From Nitrospira sp. (GTDB lineage: Bacteria; Nitrospirota; Nitrospiria; Nitrospirales; Nitrospiraceae): a stretch of 64,000 nt of DNA. The translations under genes were made by a program, and so were the position numbers. The stretch spans positions 62,001-126,000 of the forward strand of contig JALHPO010000001.1 of NCBI GenBank assembly GCA_022842445.1, read 5' to 3'. Shown here piece by piece: positions 29,771-62,062 of the stretch (its first letter is position 1; each line of letters starts with the position of its first letter). The notes beneath the pieces are model-generated. The model searched no databases and was not told the DNA's origin. It saw only the letters and a program-made list of their open reading frames with translations.

Positions 29771-30700
29771 CTAGAATCTCAACGTCCCCTCCAATACCCG
29801 CACACACTGCCCTCCCACCTTGACGGATTGAATGATGTCGTCGTCTGAATCCACCCGGACATACACGCGCGAAGGCCGATCGATTTCATAGCCTTGCTCG
29901 GCGATAATTTCGGTGACCGGCCCCACATCAACGACGCCGTTTTGGACCAGATAGGCCCCCAAGGCGCCGCTCGCGCTGCCCGTCGCAGGATCTTCCAGAA
30001 TTCCGATTGACGGGGCAAACATCCTGGTATGCACCGTAGAAGAGGGCTCCACCGTGACAGTGGTAAACACCATGATGCCGTTCGCGCCATACCGGCGGCA
30101 CACATCCGCAATCGCCGAGGCATCGGGACGGATTGATCGGACTGCCGTCAGTGTCCGCACCGGGACGATCAATACCGGCAGTCCGGTGGAGACGGCTTCG
30201 ATCGGCCACTTAGTGTCGGCAATGACGTGCTTTGACAGGCCTAGGGCCGCGGCAACTTTGTAGAGATCCTCCGTCTCCTCGATTGGCCCAAGAAATTCCG
30301 GTTTGGGCTGTGTCATCACCACCTGCTCTACCTGCCCATCGTCCGCGTGCAGTTCGACGGGGAACAACCCGATATTGCACTCCTGCATCAGCCGCGTGAC
30401 CGGTTCTTTCACGGAGATGATTCCCAGCTCGGCCAGAATAAAGAAAGTGCCCAGGACCGGATGGCCGGCGAACGGAATTTCCTGCGTGGGAGTAAAGATG
30501 CGCAGCCGCGCCACGGCGGCCGGATCGGTCGGCGGGAAAACAAACACCGTCTCGGACAGATTCATTTCGCGCGCGATTTGCTGGAGCAGATCGTCGCTCA
30601 ACCCTTGCGCATCGGGGATAACGGCGACAGGATTCCCTCCGAACGGCTGGGAGGTAAACACGTCGGCCTGGTAAAACTTCAGCGACCGCGGCTCAGGCAT
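29771..30700 (-). CDS. PhzF-family isomerase/epimerase-like protein
   Basis: 309 residues of the PhzF/diaminopimelate-epimerase-like fold. Motifs are FTSQPFGGNPVAVI near the N-terminus, the probable catalytic Glu in EMNLSETVFV, PFAGHPVLGT and DPATGSASGALGAYL. PhzF isomerises a phenazine precursor, but most chromosomal homologues have unknown substrates and no phenazine genes occur here. It is a single gene. Confidence 0.88.
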   Translation of the reverse strand: MPEPRSLKFYQADVFTSQPFGGNPVAVIPDAQGLSDDLLQQIAREMNLSETVFVFPPTDPAAVARLRIFTPTQEIPFAGHPVLGTFFILAELGIISVKEPVTRLMQECNIGLFPVELHADDGQVEQVVMTQPKPEFLGPIEETEDLYKVAAALGLSKHVIADTKWPIEAVSTGLPVLIVPVRTLTAVRSIRPDASAIADVCRRYGANGIMVFTTVTVEPSSTVHTRMFAPSIGILEDPATGSASGALGAYLVQNGVVDVGPVTEIIAEQGYEIDRPSRVYVRVDSDDDIIQSVKVGGQCVRVLEGTLRF

Positions 30701-30802
30701 TCCGTCACGATACTCCTTCTGCTGAAAAATGGAAACCGGCGAAAGAACGGACCATCATCGACCTGATTTGACAGGTACCGCGCGGCTTTGTCACACTTGC
30801 GC

Positions 30803-31057
30803 ATGACCGATGACGCCGTCCCGCAAGAAATCACCCGTGCGCTCGAGATCCTGGGACTGACACTCCCCGTCACATCCGACGCGCTCGATCGGGCTAAACG
30901 GGTCCAACTCTACAACTGGAACCCGGCCCGTTACGCGAATCTCACGAACAACCCGACCCAATATATGACGGCCTACAAGAAGGCCGAAGAGATGACCAAG
31001 CTCGTCGAAGCCTCACATGCACTGCTCTCGGCGGTACTTGTGCCGGATGAGAGCTGA
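30803..31057 (+). CDS. Small J-domain-like protein lacking HPD
   Basis: This 84-residue protein has a spacing reminiscent of a J-domain: EILGLTLPVTSDALDRAKR, an NWNPARYANLTNNP segment where HPD would be expected, and a final helix KKAEEMTKLVEASHALLSA. The catalytic HPD is absent, so DnaK stimulation is doubtful. The family is not recognised with certainty. Its last codons and stop lie inside a heptad-repeat element (GAGAGC TGA). A TTG at 30788 is an alternative start. Confidence 0.6.
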   Translation: MTDDAVPQEITRALEILGLTLPVTSDALDRAKRVQLYNWNPARYANLTNNPTQYMTAYKKAEEMTKLVEASHALLSAVLVPDES

Positions 31058-31196: not shown

Positions 31197-33149
31197 TCAT
31201 CCCACCTCGTGACTTGTGACCCGGCTCATCCCTTCATCGCCTTCCGGACGGGCCACCGGCCAGGTAATCAAACCCGACACCCCTTCCGGCGATCCGACCG
31301 GCTGGGTTTGCTGCGCATAGATCTGCGGCAACCGGTTGGTTCCAAACTTCGAGATATATAGAAACACATGTTCGCGCGAGTTGACGCGCACCGCCCAAGG
31401 GTGAAAATCGTTCTTGTAGAACTCTTCACAAAGCTGCATCGCATCCAGGCAGGACAGCGTGCTGGGGTCATTCAGTGTGTAGTAGTAATCGAGCGGGAGA
31501 TCATACTCTTCCTGTTTATGAATCGTAATGCCGAATTGTTCCGGACGGCGCACCATCGGCGTATGGCGGTACGCTACGAAATAGAACAGTTCCAGCGAGT
31601 GAATCGCCGGCTGGTTCTCAAGGACGAACCGCCTGGTTTCCATCGCTTCCTCGAACGTTTCGCCCGGAAATCCGTAGAAGGCCATCACATGGTTCCAGAT
31701 CCCGGCCTGCGCCGCCATCTGAAGATTGCGCTGGATCACGTGCTTCGTCGCGTGCTTGTCCATGAGATTCAACACGCGCTCGTTCGCCGATTCCATGCCG
31801 TAATAGAGCGTACAGCAGCCGGCCTTGGCGGCGAGATCCCAGGTGGCCTGGTCTTGTAGCGTCTCCTCAAATCGGATCAGGGTCGTCCACTTGATCCCGA
31901 CGTCCTGATCGATCAGCAGCTGTGAAACTTTCTTAAACAGTGCCGGCGGATAGGATTCGTCGGAAAAGAGGAAGTGCCGGCAGCGATACTTGTCCCGCAG
32001 CGCCTTGATCTGTTCGACCACCAGCTGGACCGGCATCCCCCGATACTGATCAAAATACCCCTGGCCATGGTCGCAGAATGTGCAGCGCCCCCAATAGCAG
32101 CCGCGCGTCGCCAGGTAGGGAATGATCAGTTCCGGAACGAAGTAGCGATCCAGCGGCATCCCCTCGAAGTCCGGCAACGGCAGCGCAGCCGTCTTCTCGG
32201 TATAGACTTCGGTATTCCGGTGAAGACCTGTGTCATCGCGATAAATCAAGTTCGGCACGGTGGCGATCGGTCGCTGTCCGTTCAAGGATTCAATGAGCCA
32301 CAGGAGCGCATGCTCTCCCTCATAAAGAATTGCTGAATCAAAGACTTCCGTGAAAAACCGCTCGTGATTCACTAGGTCCTCGTGAAGGCGCGTAATGACG
32401 TTGCCGCCCACCACCACATGGATCTGCGGGAACGTGTCCTTAATCATCTTTGCGAAGGTCAGACCCGCTAAGAACTGCATCTGCGTCCCGATGGAAATCC
32501 CGATCACATCCGGCTGCTCTCTCGCCACCTCCGGCATGACCAGCTGATTACAGAGATCCCGATAGACGTTCACCTGCTCATCTTCTAAACAGGCAAACAC
32601 TTCCTTCGAAACACCGGGACGATAGCCTAAGTTGCTTTCCATCGGATAGAACACCAGCGAGGCGGGATAGTACGCGGCGGAGATATAGGCCATGGCCTCA
32701 CGAAAGGTATTGAGCGCCCCCTCCAGAATCTCTGCCTCATAGAACCGTTCGCCACGCACGATCAGCTTGGCATCCTCCGCCCGTTCCGCGAGATCGAACA
32801 CATCGACATCATAGGCCTGCTCAACCACTGCTTTTTGTCCCACATCACGTTCGGTCAGACTTCCCGCCTTCTCTTTGTCCTGCAATGCTTTGAGCTGCAT
32901 GCCCAATCGGGCCTTCACCCAGATCAAAAACTCCACACTGAAGAAATGATCCCACATCCCGATATTGATATCGCGCTGGATGACGGTATGGCCCGCCTCC
33001 CGCAATACAGCAGTCAAGGAAGGCAAGGCGAGATAGGGCGCTGTCGGCACCCACTCAGGCGGGAATAGGAGCATGACCTTGGATTGCTTCCGATCTTCTT
33101 TCTTGATCGGAGCCAGGCCGTCAATTTGTACAAGTCCACTCGCGCTCAT
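31197..33149 (-). CDS. B12-binding-domain radical SAM protein (copy 1)
   Basis: 650 residues. The N-terminal part carries a cobalamin-binding-like Rossmann domain (PSLTAVLREAGHTVIQRDIN, later VVVGGNVITRL). The radical SAM core follows, with cluster cysteines C351, C356 and C359 in RGCYWGRCTFCDHG, a CX4CX2C spacing rather than CX3CX2C. Late hallmarks include FYGFPGETFEEAM. The C-terminal ~60 residues differ from copy 2. Such enzymes methylate or rearrange unreactive carbons; the substrate is unknown. No clear ribosome site precedes the ATG at 33149. Confidence 0.85.
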   Translation of the reverse strand: MSASGLVQIDGLAPIKKEDRKQSKVMLLFPPEWVPTAPYLALPSLTAVLREAGHTVIQRDINIGMWDHFFSVEFLIWVKARLGMQLKALQDKEKAGSLTERDVGQKAVVEQAYDVDVFDLAERAEDAKLIVRGERFYEAEILEGALNTFREAMAYISAAYYPASLVFYPMESNLGYRPGVSKEVFACLEDEQVNVYRDLCNQLVMPEVAREQPDVIGISIGTQMQFLAGLTFAKMIKDTFPQIHVVVGGNVITRLHEDLVNHERFFTEVFDSAILYEGEHALLWLIESLNGQRPIATVPNLIYRDDTGLHRNTEVYTEKTAALPLPDFEGMPLDRYFVPELIIPYLATRGCYWGRCTFCDHGQGYFDQYRGMPVQLVVEQIKALRDKYRCRHFLFSDESYPPALFKKVSQLLIDQDVGIKWTTLIRFEETLQDQATWDLAAKAGCCTLYYGMESANERVLNLMDKHATKHVIQRNLQMAAQAGIWNHVMAFYGFPGETFEEAMETRRFVLENQPAIHSLELFYFVAYRHTPMVRRPEQFGITIHKQEEYDLPLDYYYTLNDPSTLSCLDAMQLCEEFYKNDFHPWAVRVNSREHVFLYISKFGTNRLPQIYAQQTQPVGSPEGVSGLITWPVARPEGDEGMSRVTSHEVG

Positions 33150-33159
33150 GTTTGTTCTT

Positions 33160-33242
33160 TGTTAGGCGTGAAACGTAAGGCGTCAGGTGTAACCCAAGGA
33201 TTGCATCCTCGCCCCTTACGCCTCACCCCTTACCCCTTACGG
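33160..33242. repeat. Heptad-repeat palindrome, family B, between the radical SAM genes
   Basis: Units TGTTAGG, CGTGAAA, CGTAAGG, CGTCAGG (33160-33187) face CCTTACG, CCTCACC, CCTTACC, CCTTACG (33214-33241). It fills the gap between the two tandem radical SAM genes, so it would form a hairpin in an mRNA spanning both. Confidence 0.75.
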
Positions 33243-33248
33243 CCCCCA

Positions 33249-35147
33249 TTACATTTTCCCCGCCAATGTGTGCGTGACTCCGGATATTTTTGCAGCTTCA
33301 TACTGCAGGTCTTGCCGCTTTTCTAAACCAAATTTTGAAATGTAGAGAAAGATGTATTCCCGGATGTACAGGCGCAGATCCCAGCCTGGATTGTGGTTCC
33401 GCTCGAATTGCTCGAACACACGCTCCGCCTCTTCAATGCTCATCCCATGTTTCACTGTGTAATAGTAGTCGAGCGCCAAGTCCCATTCGGGATTCTTGTA
33501 GGCGGTCACCCCCCACTTCTCCGGATGCCTGGCGACCGGGTTGTGCCGGCCCAGGTCGAAGGTACCGAAGCCCAGGGAATGCACATGGTCCTTGTTCGCT
33601 TCAAGAAATTGTACCGATTGCCAGGCCTCCTCCTTCGTCTCACCGGGAAATCCGAAGAAGCCCATACAGTGGTTCCAAATGCCCGCATCGGCCGTGAGCT
33701 GCAAATGCTTCGTCATGATCTCAGTCGTGGTCGCCTTATCCATGAGCTGCAGAACTCGCTCGACGCCAGACTCATAACCGAAGTGGAGATACTTGCACCC
33801 CGATTCCTTCGCATCTTGCCACACCGTCTGATCCAGCAAACTCTTTTCAAACCGCATGTGCGTGGTCCAGACGATGCCCATCTTGCTGTCGATCAGCCCG
33901 CGCGCCAACTTGCGGAAGAGCGCCGGCGGATAGGATTCGTCCGTAAAATGGAAATGCTTCGCGCCATATTTGTCGCGCAGGTATTGGATTTCACCCAGGG
34001 CCTCTTGAATGGTCTTTGATCGGTAGCCTGCCGTATAGCCCTCACCATGGTCGCAGAACTCGCAGCGGCCCCAGTAGCAGCCACGTGTCGCCAGATAGGG
34101 CATGATCTTCGTCGGGACGAAGTATTTTTCCAGCGGCAGGCCGTCGAAATCCGGCGGCGGAAGCGCGTGCATATCTTCCGCAAAACTGATCGTGGAGGCG
34201 TGGATGCCGGCCTCATCCTTATAGATGGTATTGGGCACCGCGGCCAAACTCCGCTTCGCCCCCACGGCCGAGACCAGCTGCACAAAGGCCGTCTCCCCTT
34301 CATAGACCACGGCGCTGTCAAAATACTGAAACAGGGGCGACTGGGGCAGCACATCGCGCAGGCGGGTTACCGTATTACCGCCAATCGTCACGTGGATATG
34401 GGGGAAGTGCTGCTTGATGAGGGCGCAGAAGGTCATGGTGGAAAACATCTGCTGCTGGAGGACGATCGAGATGCCGATCACATCCGGCTGCTCTTTCTCG
34501 ATCACCGGCTTCACAAGATGCTCAAACACATCGCGGTAGATGTTGACCTGGATGTCGTTCACCGCGTCCATAATCTCGGACGAGACGAAGACCTTGTACG
34601 AGAGATTCGTCTCCATCGGCGGCATGCAGATCCGCGCCGGAGCATAGACCATCGAGATGACCGCAGTAACTTCTCGAAAGACTTGAATGGCCCACTCTAA
34701 CTGATCGATATCGTAGAACTCTTCTCCTCTGATAATACGCTTGGCCTGCTCCGCCTTCTTGATCAATTCATCGATCTTCTGGCGGGTCACGTCGCACAGC
34801 GCCAGCTGCAAATCCATCTCATTGGCGTCGAGATCCCGCTTCTTCGAGAGCTTCCGCAGCCGGTCCAACTGCTGCGGCACCTTGCGGAGAACTCTCTTCA
34901 AAAAGTCCTCGCTGAAGTACCAGTCCCACATCTCCAGATTGATATCTTTTTGAATGACCGTATGGCCTGCCTGCCGCAGGACGGCGGTGAGGGAGGGAAG
35001 ACTCAAATAGGGTTCGGAGGGGTACCAATCGGGCGGGAAGATCAGCATGACCTTCATCTTCCGGCCACTGGTGGCTTCGAAGGACTGACGATTGAGGAGG
35101 ATCAGCTCTTTAGAAGCCCGCTCGCCTTTAGAATACTCGATACGCAT
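33249..35147 (-). CDS. B12-binding-domain radical SAM protein (copy 2)
   Basis: A paralogue of the next gene downstream, about 632 residues from the ATG at 35147 (the ATG of the MKVMLIFPPDWY segment ~90 bases further in is also possible). Shared features are the N-terminal domain PSLTAVLRQAGHTVIQKDIN, THVTIGGNTVTRLRD-type strands and the same CX4CX2C cluster motif in RGCYWGRCEFCDHGEGY, then GFFGFPGETKEEAW. The two proteins are similar over most of their length, so they arose by duplication. The function is unknown. Confidence 0.85.
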   Translation of the reverse strand: MRIEYSKGERASKELILLNRQSFEATSGRKMKVMLIFPPDWYPSEPYLSLPSLTAVLRQAGHTVIQKDINLEMWDWYFSEDFLKRVLRKVPQQLDRLRKLSKKRDLDANEMDLQLALCDVTRQKIDELIKKAEQAKRIIRGEEFYDIDQLEWAIQVFREVTAVISMVYAPARICMPPMETNLSYKVFVSSEIMDAVNDIQVNIYRDVFEHLVKPVIEKEQPDVIGISIVLQQQMFSTMTFCALIKQHFPHIHVTIGGNTVTRLRDVLPQSPLFQYFDSAVVYEGETAFVQLVSAVGAKRSLAAVPNTIYKDEAGIHASTISFAEDMHALPPPDFDGLPLEKYFVPTKIMPYLATRGCYWGRCEFCDHGEGYTAGYRSKTIQEALGEIQYLRDKYGAKHFHFTDESYPPALFRKLARGLIDSKMGIVWTTHMRFEKSLLDQTVWQDAKESGCKYLHFGYESGVERVLQLMDKATTTEIMTKHLQLTADAGIWNHCMGFFGFPGETKEEAWQSVQFLEANKDHVHSLGFGTFDLGRHNPVARHPEKWGVTAYKNPEWDLALDYYYTVKHGMSIEEAERVFEQFERNHNPGWDLRLYIREYIFLYISKFGLEKRQDLQYEAAKISGVTHTLAGKM

Positions 35148-35337
35148 CCCGGCCTGATCCTTGCTCAAACTTGCCAAAACTGACAAGAAAGCCAATGGGT
35201 TAGATTCAGAGTGGCTATTTTAGGGGGCGAAAGAGGGAGATGCAAGGGCAGGAGGGATTGCGGGGCGACCAGGCACTTTCCTCTGCTCGCTGACCGCGCA
35301 CGCAAGATCTGATTAGACTTTTAGATCATGGGCGGTG

Positions 35338-46962: not shown

Positions 46963-47038
46963 GGCGGTGTAGCTCAGTTGGTAGAGCAGCGGACTCATAA
47001 GCCGCGGGTCCCCCGTTCAATCCGGGGCACCGCCACCA
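46963..47038 (+). tRNA. tRNA-Met (CAT anticodon)
   Basis: A 76-base cloverleaf with CCA encoded. The acceptor arms GGCGGTG/CACCGCC pair over seven bases, the D arm is AGCTCAGTTGGTAGAGC, the anticodon loop CTCATAA carries CAT and the T arm CCCCG/CGGGG closes TTCAATC. The G-C start of the acceptor and the anticodon stem without three G-C pairs in a row indicate an elongator rather than initiator tRNA; a tRNA-Ile with modified CAT is the alternative. Confidence 0.93.
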
Positions 47039-61564: not shown

Positions 61565-62062
61565 TCAATGGCTGCGCGTCTCGGCCCCACGACTCAATCC
61601 CGCTCCTGAGACAGGCTTGGATCCGTGCGAAGACAAATGTTCATGCAGCCCCCGTAGCGCCAAGAGATAGCCAATCGGGCCGAATCCTGAGATCTGGCCC
61701 AGCGCCACCCCTGAAACATAGGAATGCCTGCGAAACTCTTCCCGCCGGTGAATATTGGACAGATGTACTTCGATCGCCGGGATCTCGACAGCCGACAGTG
61801 CATCTCTCACCGCAATACTGGTATGCGTGTATGCCGCAGGATTAATGATGATCCCGTGATAGTTGCCGCGCGCTTCCTGAATCCACGTCACCAACTCACC
61901 TTCATGATTCGACTGGCGGATCTCCAGTTCCACTCCCAGTTCGCTGCCGAGCTTCGACAACGACGCGTCGATCTCAGCAAGCGTGGTGGTCCCATACACA
62001 GACTCTTCACGATTCCCCAGCAAATTGAGGTTGGGCCCGTGCAGAACGAGTACTCTCAGCAT
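61565..62062 (-). CDS. aroQ: 3-dehydroquinate dehydratase, type II
   Basis: The shikimate-pathway enzyme, 165 residues from the ATG at 62062. The type II signature [10 protein letters not shown] with the catalytic Tyr further on in ESVYG, then NPAAYTHTS and [14 protein letters not shown] are intact. The C-terminal 20 residues form an extra tail. The start follows AGGAGGCGG at a long spacing. Confidence 0.95.

Follow-up and report, generated by a model that had tools for sequence, protein, structure and literature searches.

The stretch of Nitrospira sp. DNA analyzed here (hereafter the window: 64,000 nucleotides, positions 62,001 to 126,000 of contig JALHPO010000001.1, assembly GCA_022842445.1) carries two adjacent genes, A and B, which encode paralogous, cobalamin-type radical S-adenosylmethionine (SAM) proteins; a third family member, C, lies elsewhere in the genome, in what appears to be the accessory gene cluster of nitrite oxidoreductase (NXR). 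Our favored explanation, to which we assign a probability of roughly 0.5, is that A and B are catalytically competent, methylase-type enzymes that carry out two related reactions in a process specific to nitrite-oxidizing Nitrospirales, and that C probably does the equivalent on the NXR system. The observations on which it draws are the domains, the cluster motif, the predicted fold, the strict linkage, the purifying selection and the lineage distribution of the pair, together with the place of C in its cluster. The A, B and C enzymes are an undescribed subgroup of a known kind.

The paralogous pair

The host genome is Nitrospira-like and comprises 3.46 Mb in 32 contigs. An initial annotation of the window had described two neighboring B12 radical SAM paralogues with differing C-terminal tails and CX4CX2C cluster motifs, and this description holds in every part: both open reading frames (ORFs) are present, both match the B12-binding and Radical_SAM families above their Pfam cut-offs, the tail of A is unlike that of B, and the motif spacing is exact in A (RGCYWGRCEFCDHG) and in B (RGCYWGRCTFCDHG). 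The two proteins are 47% identical across 606 amino acids with 4 gap positions in a pairwise alignment, a similarity far beyond chance. The features of the pair are as follows.

33249..35147, minus strand: gene A, cobalamin-type radical SAM protein of 632 amino acids, upstream member of the pair (ORF, Pfam, AlphaFold2 (AF2))
34647..34943, minus strand: helical insertion in the N-terminal Rossmann domain of A, model residues 69-167, with a counterpart in B (AF2 secondary structure)
34275..34523, minus strand: B12-binding PF02310 match in A, 41.8 bits against a cut-off of 32.1
34053..34079, minus strand: CX4CX2C cluster motif of A, C357-x4-C362-x2-C365 (sequence)
33603..34091, minus strand: Radical SAM PF04055 match in A, 53.8 bits against a cut-off of 29.5
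33150..33248, minus strand: A-B intergenic spacer of 99 bp between the same-strand genes
31197..33149, minus strand: gene B, cobalamin-type radical SAM protein of 650 amino acids, downstream member of the pair (ORF, Pfam, AF2)
32304..32594, minus strand: B12-binding PF02310 match in B, 37.1 bits against a cut-off of 32.1
32073..32099, minus strand: CX4CX2C cluster motif of B, C351-x4-C356-x2-C359 (sequence)
31623..32111, minus strand: Radical SAM PF04055 match in B, 60.8 bits against a cut-off of 29.5

The start of gene A is taken as the ATG at 35147 in preference to the TTG at 35195, which opens an alternative longer frame, because the alignments of nearly all relatives begin only at residue 8-17 of the longer frame, which puts the TTG upstream of the conserved region. 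Both proteins have the class B arrangement, with a B12-binding Rossmann domain at the N terminus and a radical SAM domain after it, and in both the three cysteines of the SAM cluster motif lie close to where the barrel begins, at a spacing unlike the canonical CX3CX2C. This spacing is kept in 111 of 112 distinct A sequences, in all 78 distinct B sequences and in 12/12 C sequences; it also occurs in two distant Nitrospirota homologues and in five homologues from other phyla that are encoded on plasmids (Rhizobium, Sinorhizobium, Parabacteroides, Aureibacter and Ideonella). The initial annotation had pointed out this spacing; we reject it as a novelty, as the motif has been published for the gentamicin C-methyltransferase GenD1 (PMC4340712) and is common to all homologues inspected. 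Judged from these sequences, CX4CX2C is the mark of a broad subfamily.

The pairing is strict: A is followed by B on the same strand, across gaps of 3 to about 236 bp, in 135/135 loci with at least 1.4 kb of sequence beyond A, although these loci come from related genomes, some sampled twice, and do not represent 135 independent events. The paralogues co-occur well beyond the single genome in which they had been noticed. A and B are probably on one transcript. The spacer at 33150-33248 also contains an imperfect inverted repeat, GTGAGGCGTAAGGG...CGCCTTACGTTTCACGCC, which resembles an intergenic repeat element.

A maximum-likelihood tree (from a quick search only, and with long outgroup branches) resolves A, B and C as one clade apiece, with A sister to B and C outside both. 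Since A and B each have their own clade, their duplication is older than the diversification of the Nitrospirales. The ratio of nonsynonymous to synonymous substitution rates (dN/dS) lies at about 0.07-0.10 in A and about 0.04-0.09 in B. By this measure, in which dS is close to saturation, both genes are under purifying selection. The alignment of A, B and C has 94 invariant positions, the cysteines among them, and another 65 at which A and B carry different fixed residues, many lying within barrel strands; among these are H400/L394, H430/L424, H455/Y449 and GFGTFDL/ELFYFVA at 526-532. The concentration of fixed differences in the catalytic barrel suggests different substrates or steps, and the two patterns together suggest a common cofactor machinery serving two distinct substrate pockets. 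The two-step reaction that the initial annotation had raised as a possibility fits this distribution, as do two different substrates.

Two simpler accounts of the duplication fail. A recent or redundant duplication is rejected by the 47% identity, the separate clades, the fixed differences and the dN/dS, and a dead copy by the retention of the motif, the 94 fixed positions and the constraint in both genes. It might instead be proposed that A and B form an obligate heteromer in which one partner is catalytic and the other a scaffold. The one-to-one linkage in all 135 loci and the joint absence of both genes from a streamlined subclade (see below) would suit such an assembly, yet both proteins keep the cysteine motif and every family-fixed position and are equally constrained, and we consider a catalytically silent partner very improbable.

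Predicted structure and relation to known enzymes

The AF2 models of A (predicted local distance difference test (pLDDT) 79.8, predicted template modeling score (pTM) 0.83) and B (pLDDT 78.5, pTM 0.83) each consist of a B12-type Rossmann domain, a helical insertion of ~100 residues and then a radical SAM barrel. Their best matches among solved structures are OxsB, TsrM, AprD4, MgmA, CysS and TokK, so that among radical SAM proteins the cobalamin-dependent enzymes are foremost. For A, the Z scores are 23.0 (OxsB), 22.8 (TsrM), 22.2 (AprD4) and 21.6 (MgmA); for B, they are 19.1 (OxsB), 17.9 (TsrM) and 17.0 (MgmA). A profile search of PDB sequences likewise ranks OxsB first. Identity to the top structural matches, OxsB (5ul4) and TsrM (6wte/6wtf), is about 14-19%, and these enzymes have different substrates, the former catalyzing a nucleotide ring contraction and the latter tryptophan methylation.

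Neither A nor B reaches any named NCBIfam family at its cut-off, so that, in line with the initial annotation, no named family with a characterized substrate takes in the pair; the nearest families are PhpK and the C-methyltransferases of ribosomally synthesized and post-translationally modified peptides (RiPPs). TIGR04479 (PhpK/BcpD, a P-methyltransferase family) covers the B12-binding and radical SAM regions and is the best match of B (147.3 bits) and the second of A (117.6 bits; C, 130.4 bits), but all three fall far under its 600-bit cut-off, and no phosphonate genes were identified near A and B. The RiPP maturation C-methyltransferase family TIGR03975 (rSAM_ocin_1) is the best match for A (122.1 bits) and C (163.1 bits), with B at 106.3 bits, all under the cut-off of 281.85. 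Against the methyl-coenzyme M reductase glutamine methylase family, TIGR04014, the scores are B 45.4, A 49.0 and C 62.0 bits, with A and B far short of the 360-bit cut-off. Its structural counterpart MgmA (9ccb) shares the cobalamin-dependent radical SAM fold of A and methylates a glutamine of methyl-coenzyme M reductase (PMC11796369), itself the key enzyme in a geochemical pathway, but it is shorter than A and B, with 417 residues in the solved chain. GenD1, likened here by its description, is also a cobalamin-dependent radical SAM enzyme of similar size (77 kDa) with CX4CX2C (PMC4340712); it differs in that it acts on an aminoglycoside, at gentamicin C-4'', and is encoded within a biosynthetic cluster.

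These comparisons bear on whether A and B could act on a ribosomal peptide, or on a protein, as RiPP enzymes do. RiPP C-methyltransferase profiles rank first or second for A, B and C, and the protein C-methylase MgmA is one of the solved structures that match best. However, the scores lie far under the family cut-offs, Pfam finds no RRE/PqqD domain in A or B, and no precursor-like peptide or recognition domain was found beside the genes, although such peptides are easily missed; the sole linked small ORF is J-domain-like. We consider a RiPP-like role unlikely. An RRE/PqqD domain suspected by eye in the plasmid-borne homologues was also rejected, as it has no Pfam match.

A third paralogue and the distribution of the family

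Two findings lie outside the window and beyond anything the initial annotation had claimed: the NXR accessory cluster contains a third paralogue, and the family is restricted to nitrite-oxidizing Nitrospirales.

L143:8256-10037 (G000:C1:591369-593051): paralogue C, CX4CX2C family (locus comparison)

C is ~35% identical to A and B. It sits between two NxrC-type genes (PF09459), and its other neighbors are a TorD/NarJ-type chaperone (PF02613), a NapG-like ferredoxin, a tetratricopeptide repeat protein and two multihaem cytochromes. This arrangement was seen in 11/11 genomes examined, namely the one carrying locus L143 and ten more from the families f1, f2 and f3, two of whose loci are cut by a contig or region end. 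A published cluster, NITMOv2_3614-3631, has been proposed as diagnostic of nitrite-oxidizing metabolism and is expressed during growth on nitrite (PMC12342949); like the C locus, it includes two NxrC-type genes, a TorD-type chaperone and two multihaem cytochromes. The nxrC_1 and nxrC_2 genes of N. moscoviensis are numbered 3617 and 3624 (PMC6606698) and hence fall inside this range. The C locus appears to be the published cluster, and C appears to be universal in NXR-bearing Nitrospirales. The text of PMC12342949 makes no mention of radical SAM or cobalamin, and our literature search found nothing tying Nitrospira NXR to radical SAM enzymes or methylation.

The distribution of the family was surveyed in 395 genomes of the phylum Nitrospirota, 252 of them outside the order Nitrospirales. 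Every genome sampled from families f1, f2 and f3 (140/140) has at least one member, no copy was found in any of the three genomes of family f4 (0/3), and outside the order homologues occur in only 2/252 genomes, at ~30% identity. Beyond the phylum, the search was limited to a single scan of genome contigs, which gave close relatives only. NxrB at 92% identity or more is similarly confined to f1-f3; one genome outside the order has a partial NxrB match at 71%. This agrees with published work, according to which Nitrospiraceae, UBA8639 and NS-4 have NXR and UBA2166 does not (PMC12342949), and since f4 lacks NXR we equate it with UBA2166. The A/B/C family is thus present in the NXR-bearing families and absent from the NXR-negative one, the distribution expected of an NXR-associated accessory gene set. 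The occurrence of the A-B pair almost throughout the nitrite-oxidizing Nitrospirales and its absence from their non-nitrite-oxidizing neighbors, taken together with the location of C in the NXR cluster, suggest that a B12-dependent step not yet described is tied to nitrite oxidation.

One locus in the comparison, L110 (JACZVJ010000009.1), is titled Nitrospinota; its A/B region groups with f3 in both sequence and synteny, and the metagenome-assembled genome (MAG) is probably mislabeled.

Counterevidence and natural loss

Several points weigh against our favored explanation. First, the order-wide distribution is confounded with shared ancestry. Second, A and B stand elsewhere in the genome than the NXR accessory cluster and adjoin no NXR genes, so that the physical linkage to NXR or its accessory genes found for C does not extend to them. 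Third, four genomes of 2.4-2.9 Mb (G009, G253, G349 and G355) encode NxrB at 99% and C at 85-89% identity and have neither A nor B; with NXR and C retained in this small-genome subclade, A and B are not required for NXR itself. Fourth, the loop bearing the cluster motif is modeled at low confidence (pLDDT 43-66), and we therefore make no claim on cluster geometry. Finally, the fold is matched as closely by OxsB, which performs a ring contraction, and by AprD4, a diol dehydratase, as by the methylases, and with such other chemistry sharing it, methyl transfer is not forced; we infer methyl transfer, as we do peptide or protein substrates and the NXR link of A and B.

We read the loss of A and B in the small-genome subclade as real, given that in G349 the PhzF, alcohol dehydrogenase (ADH), CBS and MogA genes that often lie downstream of the pair are intact on a 585-kb contig from which A, B and the small ORF sm89 are missing, and that both genes are also absent from G009, G253 and G355. 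These four genomes are in effect natural knock-outs. Apparent losses in G031 and G076 were rejected, as their contigs (the ends of G031:C171 and G076:C16) break beside PhzF or sm89; such breaks make A and B look absent in otherwise complete MAGs.

The same facts favor the idea that A and B are a lineage-wide housekeeping pair without any link to nitrite oxidation, their co-distribution with NXR reflecting descent only. The NXR-bearing families all form one clade within the order, and the pair is dispensable where NXR is still held. Set against this are the synteny of C with NXR accessory genes in every genome checked and the absence of the family from the NXR-negative family of the same order, and we regard co-distribution by descent as a lesser, though real, possibility.

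Gene neighborhood

Downstream of the pair, two further features of the window recur in other genomes.

30788..31057, plus strand: sm89, a convergent ORF of 89 amino acids, J-domain-like without HPD, downstream of nearly every A-B pair with enough flank
29771..30700, minus strand: PhzF-family isomerase, conserved downstream neighbor (locus comparison)

The sm89 signature is W-x-P-x-R-Y-A-x-L-T-N-N-P; the orthologue in locus L134 matches DnaJ with an E value of 0.0043, which falls short of the cut-off. In Nitrospiraceae and family f3 the order is A - B - sm89 - R9 - PhzF, often followed by the alcohol dehydrogenase, CBS protein and MogA genes, where R9 is a radical SAM protein of 412 amino acids with CX3CX2C (CPVKCEFC) and a sub-threshold Pfam match (e.g., L054:14294-15529, plus strand). 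The initial annotation had found no recognizable biosynthetic neighbors, which stands for this genome but not for 40 related loci, where R9 lies just downstream of A-B and before PhzF. R9 is cleanly missing from 28 loci with enough flank, this genome included, and in most of them the remaining genes close up. The R9-lacking clade seems to include comammox Nitrospira (CG24A, CG24E).

This neighborhood raises the possibility that A and B tailor a small molecule (a lipid, quinone, cofactor or secondary metabolite) with R9, PhzF and sometimes a 2-oxoglutarate (2OG)-Fe(II) oxygenase and a SAM methyltransferase. In its favor, PhzF nearly always follows the pair, with R9 in the 40 loci just mentioned; 2OG-Fe(II) oxygenase and SAM methyltransferase genes lie near the pair in several Nitrospiraceae; and among named profiles B is closest to that of PhpK, a P-methyltransferase of small molecules; the fold also matches OxsB. 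The partners are nevertheless loosely attached: the 28 loci without R9 retain A and B and, nearly always, PhzF; the NS-4 type locus L133 has neither R9 nor PhzF beside A and B; G038 has R9 without A or B; and the persistence of the PhzF-ADH-CBS-MogA run in G349 may point to plain synteny. Because R9 is missing from many loci and neither R9 nor PhzF adjoins the pair in L133, the tight unit consists only of A, B and sm89, and we hold small-molecule tailoring to be possible but not probable.

No cobalamin riboswitch was found near A/B or C at the Rfam gathering threshold, and the sole Rfam match at that threshold in the window is a tRNA gene at 46963-47035 (plus strand). In the f3 type loci L134, L135, L142, L110 and L107, the cobalamin-dependent methionine synthase MetH is encoded on the same strand as A, a few kb upstream of it.

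Proposed mechanism and significance

In the chemistry familiar from cobalamin-dependent radical SAM enzymes, the cluster reduces and cleaves SAM, a hydrogen of the substrate passes to the resulting 5'-deoxyadenosyl radical, and the methyl group comes from methylcobalamin. Under our favored explanation, an ancient tandem duplication gave rise to A and B, which are very probably expressed together and would each have their own fixed substrate pocket. By analogy, the [4Fe-4S] cluster on CX4CX2C would cleave SAM, the radical would abstract hydrogen from the substrate, and the methyl donor would be methylcobalamin bound by the N-terminal Rossmann domain. The reactions would most likely be C-methylations at unactivated positions, on one substrate or on two linked substrates, and C would probably do an equivalent job on the NXR system, plausibly on a protein residue. 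MgmA and Mmp10 both modify methyl-coenzyme M reductase, and C may modify the NXR system as MgmA does that enzyme.

All told, the observation of the initial annotation is confirmed and its interpretation partly supported. A bolder and, as a whole, quite improbable extension is that nitrite oxidation in Nitrospira itself depends on a dedicated B12/radical SAM system, in which C C-methylates a residue of the NXR system and A and B make two further modifications specific to nitrite oxidizers, and that this dependence would be a direct molecular explanation for the B12 need of nitrite oxidation in N. marina. As carried out by Nitrospira, nitrite oxidation is a main step in global nitrogen cycling. 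When B12 is lacking, N. marina ceases to consume nitrite, and no more than three B12-dependent enzymes are named (PMC8115632). With the family described here, each genome of the nitrite-oxidizing Nitrospirales gains up to three predicted B12 enzymes, of which one lies in the NXR accessory cluster, and through these further candidates a direct connection of B12 with nitrite oxidation becomes testable. If C does modify NXR, a central bioenergetic enzyme would carry an unrecognized B12-dependent modification.

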